Origin: Candidatus Polarisedimenticolia bacterium
GTDB taxonomy: Bacteria; Acidobacteriota; Polarisedimenticolia; Gp22-AA2; AA152
NCBI GenBank assembly: GCA_035764505.1
Contig: DASTZC010000114.1
Location: 1-41,016 of the forward strand
Direction: 5' to 3'
Length of the DNA: 41,016 nt
Shown piece after piece: positions 3,402 to 5,356 of the stretch (the stretch's first letter is position 1; each line of letters begins with the position of its first letter). Below the pieces are notes generated by a model. That model worked only from the letters and a program-made list of their open reading frames with translations. It was not told the origin of the DNA and did no database searches. The translations under genes were made by a program, and so were the position numbers.

Positions 3402-4388
3402 CTAAGATTGTCCCTTGAGCTTTCGGACTTCCTCCGAGAGCCGGGGAAGGATTTCGTAGAGATCGCCGACGATGCCGTAATCGGCCAGCTTGAAGATCGG
3501 GGCCTCGGGATCCTTGTTGATCGCGACGATCACTTTCGAGCTCGACATCCCCGCCAGGTGCTGGATGGCCCCCGAAATGCCGATGGCGACGTAGAGGTTC
3601 GGGGAAACGACTTTGCCCGTCTGCCCCACCTGGTACTGGTGATCGATCCAGCCGGCATCAACGGCGGCGCGCGAGGCGCCCATCGCGCCTCCCAGCGCCT
3701 TGGCCAGATCGCGGATGAGGGCGAAGTTCTCGGGCCCCTTCATGGCACGCCCCCCCGAGACGACGATCGAGGCCTCGGAGACATCCAGCTCGGCCCCTTC
3801 GCTCGCTTCCAGGCTGACCGTCCGGGCACGCAGCGCCGCCGGATCCCCCGGGATCTCGAGCTTCTCCACCGGTGCGCTGCCGGCGGGGACTTCCTCCATC
3901 CGGAAGACGTTGGGGCGCAGCGAGACGAAGATCGGACTTCCCTCGAAGACCACCGTGGCGATGGCCTTCCCCGAGTAGACGGGACGCTTGGCCTTCAGCT
4001 TCCCGGCTTCGACATCGAGATGCGTGCAGTCGGCGGCCAGCCCCGCTTCGAGCTTGGCGGCGGCGCGGGGCCCCAGGTCCTTGCCCATCGCGGTGGCGGA
4101 AAGAAAGACGATGCCGCAGCCGGTCTTGCGGACCGCGTCGGCGAGAAGCGCGGCGTAAATCTCGGGCTGGTAGAGCGCCACCTTCTCGTCGTCGGCCGCC
4201 AGGATCTTCTCGAGGCCCGGGGCGGCAATCGAGCCCATCTGCCCGGAGAAGCCCGCCCCGATCGCCAGGGCGATCAGCTTTCCCCCCAGCGCCTTGGCGG
4301 TCCTGGATCCCTCGGAAAGGGCCTCCAGCGACGGGCGCTTGATCTGACCGCCGCGGACCTCGATGAAAACCAGGACGTCGTTGGCCAA
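3402..4388 (-). CDS. etfA: Electron transfer flavoprotein, alpha subunit
   Basis: 328 aa. Large subunit of the soluble FAD-containing heterodimer that takes electrons from acyl-CoA and related dehydrogenases. The C-terminal FAD domain carries SGGRAMKG, a [18 protein letters not shown] stretch, [10 protein letters not shown] and [20 protein letters not shown], all diagnostic. The start is TTG at 4388, with TAGGAG 8-11 nt upstream. It should be translated right after etfB, but a 164-bp inverted-repeat element separates them. The subunit length is normal and the frame is intact. Confidence 0.95.
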
Positions 4389-4404
4389 GCGGAAACTCTC
4401 CTAA

Positions 4405-4568
4405 GTGTTGCGTATCAGAAATCGAGTTAACACCGAGGCCGTCGAGGCGCCCGGATCGCGAGGCGCGTTGAAGCGCCGCGTACCCATGCGGCAACGCAAG
4501 CGAGACGCAACGCAGCGAAACGGGATGGATCGGCGGCCGAATGTAACACGGTTTCTGGTACGCGACAC
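4405..4568. mobile_element. MITE-like element with 3-bp target duplication between etfB and etfA
   Basis: The 164-bp stretch is bounded by imperfect terminal inverted repeats of about 26 bp. The left end on the plus strand reads GTGTTGCGTATCAGAAATCG; the right end on the minus strand reads GTGTCGCGTACCAGAAACCG. Both continue into GTTA(A)CA. TAA flanks it on both sides (4402-4404 and 4569-4571). Removing the element and one TAA recreates ATT-TAG-GAG between etfB and etfA, giving a stop fused to the etfA ribosome site. The interior is GC-rich with a small hairpin (GGCGC-N6-GCGCC) and no gene. The etfB stop codon TAG uses the first base of the element. A 3-bp TWA duplication is typical of IS5/PIF-Harbinger-type transposition; that assignment is tentative. 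Confidence 0.85.
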
Positions 4569-5356
4569 TAAATGACCTTCGCTTCTTCGCGCAGCAGGCG
4601 CACCAGCTCATGCGCCGCAGCGGCCGGCTCCATGTCCTTCAGCATCTTGCCGGCGGTGCGCGCCGGCGGCAGCTCCAGCTTCTCCCAGCGGGTTCGCGCC
4701 CCGGCATGCCCCACCGTCGCCGGATCGATCCCCAGATCGGCGGCACCCAGAACCTTCATCTCTTTCTTCTTCGCCGCCAGGATCCCCTTGAGGGAGGCGT
4801 AGCGCGGCTCGTTCAATCCCTTCTGCGCGGTGACCAGGGCGGGGGTGGCTCCTTCGACGATCTCGTGCGCCCCTTCGATCTCGCGGTGGGCGCGGAAGCT
4901 TCCTTCCCCGACCTCAAGGTGGGTGACGACCGACACATGCGGCAGCCCCAGCAGCTCCGCGACGCGCGGTCCGATCTGGCCGCGGTCGGTCCCCACCGCC
5001 TGCTTGCCCATCAGGATCAGGTCGAAGGCCTCGGGCTTGAGCGCCGCCGCCAGGATGCGGGAGAGGCCGACGGCATCGGAGCCCTCGAAGGCCGCGTCCT
5101 TGAGGTGCACGGCCCGGTCCGCGCCCATTGCCAGCGCGGTGCGCAGGGAGGTGCCCGTGCGCTCGTCCCCCACCGAGAAGACCACCACCTCGCCGGTCTG
5201 CTTCTCCTTGATGCGCAGCGCCTCTTCCAGGGCGTACTCGTCGTAAGGGCTGATCACGAAGGTGACGCCCGCTGCGTCCAGGGAGCGGCCGTCGGCGGCG
5301 ACCTTGACCTTGGTCTCGGTATCGGGGACCTGTTTGATGCAGACGCCTATCTTCAC
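4568..5356 (-). CDS. etfB: Electron transfer flavoprotein, beta subunit
   Basis: 262 aa. Small ETF subunit, which binds AMP. It starts MKIGVCIKQVPDTE, has FVISPYDEYALEEALRIKE and the loop LMGKQAVGTDRGQIGPRVAE that forms the nucleotide/recognition region. The start is GTG at 5356, only 4 nt after the fabF stop, so translation is probably coupled. The final codon ATT is followed by TAG, whose G belongs to the inserted inverted-repeat element. Placement behind fabF suggests that electron transfer is co-expressed with fatty-acid synthesis. Confidence 0.95.
   Translation of the reverse strand: MKIGVCIKQVPDTETKVKVAADGRSLDAAGVTFVISPYDEYALEEALRIKEKQTGEVVVFSVGDERTGTSLRTALAMGADRAVHLKDAAFEGSDAVGLSRILAAALKPEAFDLILMGKQAVGTDRGQIGPRVAELLGLPHVSVVTHLEVGEGSFRAHREIEGAHEIVEGATPALVTAQKGLNEPRYASLKGILAAKKKEMKVLGAADLGIDPATVGHAGARTRWEKLELPPARTAGKMLKDMEPAAAAHELVRLLREEAKVI

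Follow-up and report, generated by a model that had tools for sequence, protein, structure and literature searches.

A mobile MITE family that favours CTAG targets separates etfB from etfA in an Acidobacteriota genome

A precise insertion between etfB and etfA

How can a mobile element enter a two-gene junction and leave both reading frames unbroken? The etfBA locus, which lies downstream of a fatty-acid synthesis cluster in the window (the whole 41-kb stretch of DNA analysed), raises this question: etfB (4568 to 5356, minus strand; open reading frame, Pfam ETF) is parted from etfA (3402 to 4388, minus strand, with a TTG start; Pfam ETF and ETF_alpha) by a 164-bp non-coding inverted-repeat element at 4405 to 4568. 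Its outer 26 bp, the L-end repeat GTGTTGCGTATCAGAAATCGAGTTAA (4405 to 4430, plus strand) and the R-end repeat GTGTCGCGTACCAGAAACCGTGTTAC (4543 to 4568, minus strand), agree at 21 of 26 positions, the best 26-bp inverted repeat spanning 140 to 190 bp anywhere in the window; the next unrelated one scores 19. The element is short, has terminal inverted repeats and contains no transposase ORF or other coding capacity; it lies on the minus strand, with its R end first on the etfBA mRNA strand. Direct TAA repeats, attributed to target duplication, flank it at 4402 to 4404 and 4569 to 4571, and positions 4569 to 4570 are the TA of the etfB stop codon on the minus strand.

The etfB stop codon TAG (4570 to 4568) thus consists of the target TA plus the first G of the element, and the etfA ribosome-binding site GGAG (4398 to 4401, minus strand) is intact after insertion. 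With the element, 179 nt separate the etfB stop from the etfA start; minus the 164 bp and one TAA, the gap is 12 nt. The element went into the TA of the etfB TAG stop, which is remade because the element starts with G, and the second target copy preserves the TAGGAG ribosome site of etfA.

The element is a dispersed, mobile repeat

The host's own genome (G000; 4.46 Mb in 288 contigs) contains 43 matches to the element, about 20 of them full-length, at 72 to 92% identity. There are about 40 or more elements in a genome of the same family (G003) and two full copies in one of the same genus (G001); no copy was found in G002. More distant members are present in G006 and matching ends in G012. Searches of plasmid and viral collections gave no match to the element, and an Etf search of viral contigs returned nothing.

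The etfB-etfA junction is uninterrupted in the three nearest relatives, G001, G002, and G003. The G001 junction, CATTTAGGAG, which includes TAGGAG, is the same as that of the window after removal of the element and one TAA, and the closest named record, JAKEFJ010000029 (Acidobacteria bacterium PMV_2.74), has the same junction sequence as G001. Since the junctions of relatives are empty and one matches the reconstruction, the window element is an insertion. About 24 G003 contig ends (loci L229-L256) break roughly 136 bp into identical element copies, a sign of recent amplification and assembly collapse; the element ends in these copies have no mismatches and nearly all flanks are cTA, which indicates a recent burst. 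With copies at many sites, empty sites, and recent identical copies, the element is mobile.

A first-pass annotation of this DNA had described a precise MITE insertion with a reconstructable target, and its description is borne out to the base: the 164-bp length, the inverted-repeat ends, the TAA on either side, the TAG stop finished by the element's first base (4568) so that the split operon keeps both frames, and the tight junction restored by deletion. The further copies it asked for are present in G000, G001, and G003, and the empty etfBA site in G001, G002, and G003; the element is neither confined to this site nor lacking an empty allele, and a regulatory RNA is excluded (see below). The window element is a true MITE insertion, belonging to a new family but to an ordinary kind of bacterial mini-transposon.

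Related and partial elements

Several variants accompany the 164-bp form. Elements of 57 to 219 bp (L159:5113-5185, L159:16279-16335, L157:765-983, and L142:75-287) have the same ends with middles that are different or internally deleted, and copies at L010, L014, L015, L020, and L021 carry an extra palindromic block of about 20 bp (TGGAGCGGCCATAGGCCGCGGCGCC) at one internal position. At L018, L022, L023, L027, and L028 we found partial matches covering about query positions 20 to 140, mostly without either terminal repeat; this core may be an independent repeat or represent decayed copies. Unpaired terminal-repeat matches in G000 and G003 were considered as possible long elements, and terminal-repeat scans with ORF lists revealed no transposon-like structure. 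Three of these matches (L129:3628, L133:2886, and L136:2921) belong to a second short repeat of about 100 bp (AACTGCCCTTACAGCCGACCGGCCAGAAGACGGCCGG...), which has only its outer end, TTA-GTGTCGCG (the hyphen marking the element boundary), in common with the MITE family.

Target duplication and the likely mover

Most of the 164-bp copies in G003 read cTA-GTGT...ACAC-TAg; because CTAG is palindromic, such flanks fit duplication of either TA or the 4-bp CTAG. Copies in non-CTAG targets (tTA..TAt, cTA..TAt, aTA..TAa, gTA..TAt, and aTA..TAc) have only TA common to both flanks, and at least six share TA alone (L155c, L157, L159 three times, and L175), a pattern that favours TA duplication and that duplicating all 4 bp of CTAG could not produce. 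TA duplication is seen family-wide, with TA/TA in most recent copies and strictly so in recent G003 copies. Minority forms extend one base beyond TA, as in the window copy (TAA/TAA) and L002 (TCA/TCA), and at L015, whose G003 orthologue ends in TAA, one flank is TA and the other A. Few copies in the host genome keep TA on both sides, though they match their consensus at up to 98%; there, the flanking TA has been lost more frequently than the element ends have diverged. The extra base and the scarcity of paired TA both count against the reading proposed below.

Duplication of TA is the rule for IS630/Tc1-mariner elements, and ISY100, an IS630 element that has been studied, likewise duplicates TA, some of its products having TA at one flank and A at the other (PMC2170065), the form seen at L015. 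An intact IS630-family element (G014:C19, locus L266; transposase NF033545, E 4.6e-81) is bounded on both sides by cTA-GTGTAGTGTT, that is, GTGT ends in CTAG. It resembles the MITE in having CTA-GTGT at both ends, a TA/CTAG target, and a host of the same bacterial class; however, the end similarity stops after about 7 to 9 bases, and it is not the parent element. We infer an IS630/Tc1-mariner-type transposase, and conclude that this is very probably a non-autonomous MITE family, spread in an Acidobacteriota group and most likely moved in trans by such an enzyme, that inserts at TA, mostly within CTAG, and duplicates TA.

A MITE usually, though not necessarily, shares its ends with a full-length IS of its own genome. 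The full-length IS with the same ends that the first-pass annotation had suggested seeking was not found in G000 or G003; the host assembly has no DDE_3 (PF13358, IS630-type) transposase, and when terminal repeats were sought next to the transposases of G003, G002, and G012, none matched the ends of the element. Such absences are weak evidence, because draft assemblies often miss multi-copy ISs.

The annotation had instead favoured an IS5-like mover with a 3-bp TWA duplication. An IS5-family transposase making a 3-bp TNA or 4-bp YTAR duplication could move the same kind of MITE, and would account for the TAA/TAA and TCA/TCA flanks as well as the CTAG-flanked copies; MITEPsy1, related to ISPsy2 of the IS5 family, duplicates CTAG or YTAA (PMC3189936). 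We nevertheless regard it as improbable, in that the copies sharing TA alone do not follow a 3- or 4-bp duplication as a family rule, the host assembly has no PF01609 (IS5/IS4-type) transposase, and the G014 IS630 element, whose GTGT ends lie in CTAG, comes from the same class.

Insertion at stop codons

Among 47 full-length copies, 24 have a junction exactly at a gene's stop codon, nearly always as TA plus G, a count that rests on gene calls made for this analysis, which reproduce etfA and etfB. Stop codons account for 14% of TA outside coding sequence and for 54% (G000) or 24% (G003) of the free CTAG sites there, so that a special stop-codon targeting mechanism is partly rejected. CTAG is scarce, with 43 free sites in the host DNA examined, far below the estimate from base composition. 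A preference for CTAG, together with loss of insertions within genes, explains much of the stop-codon habit: all of it in G000, and part of it in G003. For two copies, that of the window and L011, orthologues confirm that the stop was there before the element.

Read along the ending gene, old stop-codon copies are R-end first in 18 cases and L-end first in one (two-sided binomial P = 8e-5), versus 8:6 for recent G003 stop-codon copies (Fisher P = 0.026 for old against recent); copies were sorted into old and recent by hand and the tests were devised post hoc, so these statistics are exploratory. The etfBA copy has the R-first orientation. In RNA form, 39 of 47 copies have the more stable fold on the L-first strand, the reason being that mismatches between the ends are G-U on that strand and A-C on the R-first strand. 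The contrast between old and recent copies suggests selection on transcript structure, and it is a reasonable inference that stop-codon insertions in the L-first orientation disappear with time. More speculatively, and with considerable doubt, stop codons may be a safe niche for the family: CTAG is rare outside stops, the first base remakes TAG, and selection would later leave only the weaker-hairpin orientation, giving many mRNAs a standard 3' extension.

Predicted consequences for etfBA

The window element has a strong predicted fold (z -4.8), and its long hairpin in the etfB-etfA mRNA (-74 kcal/mol) would break the prior 12-nt translational coupling. By likeness to ERIC and Correia elements (PMC2229807, PMC3049150), termination of etfB and initiation of etfA would probably no longer be tightly coupled; the hairpin could possibly be an RNase processing site, and EtfA might be lowered or uncoupled, with a possible change in the EtfB:EtfA ratio.

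It is unlikely that selection now maintains this copy, mobile in origin, as a regulatory hairpin that sets the ratio of EtfB to EtfA. The strong fold and the shift from 8:6 in recent to 18:1 in old stop copies, by which transcript orientation appears to matter, agree with such a role, but the bias equally fits purging of harmful insertions; moreover, a scan of the element for a sigma-70 promoter and an intrinsic terminator found neither, relatives do without the element at etfBA, and the window copy, about 6% off its consensus, shows no special constraint. A conserved, immobile regulatory RNA of the etf operon, suggested by a stable hairpin within the operon, can be dismissed: copies occupy dozens of unrelated places, the nearest relatives have an empty junction, and no Rfam hit with an E value of 1 or less fell on the element.

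Significance and comparison with known elements

Our analysis documents a MITE family that is mobile and seems to have been active recently, in a poorly cultured Acidobacteriota class, and describes concretely how an element that targets CTAG can enter operons with reading frames unbroken. The habit of landing at stop codons neatly illustrates the harmless spread of such elements. Should the orientation difference between old and recent copies be confirmed, it would allow selection on the hairpins that MITEs form in transcripts to be measured directly. On its own, the insertion at etfBA changes no known biology.

The closest parallels are other small bacterial repeats. RUP of Streptococcus pneumoniae (107 bp, with IS630-Spn1-type ends) is likewise short, non-coding, and intergenic, with TA at its ends and many copies, and is thought to be moved in trans by an IS630 transposase (PMC2229807), although its sequence and length differ and an IS with matching ends is known for RUP and was not found for the MITE. 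The Correia elements or NEMIS of Neisseria, at about 107 to 155 bp, are also similar, with 24-bp inverted ends, TA termini, and hairpin transcripts (PMC2229807), but are of other sequence and carry further DNA motifs, none of which we detected in the MITE. The effect of ERIC on upstream mRNA depends on its orientation (PMC2229807), and some BOX copies, like those described here, provide a gene's stop codon (36 cases, PMC3049150). Both are unrelated to the MITE in sequence, and the MITE stop codon is built from the target TA and the first base of the element.
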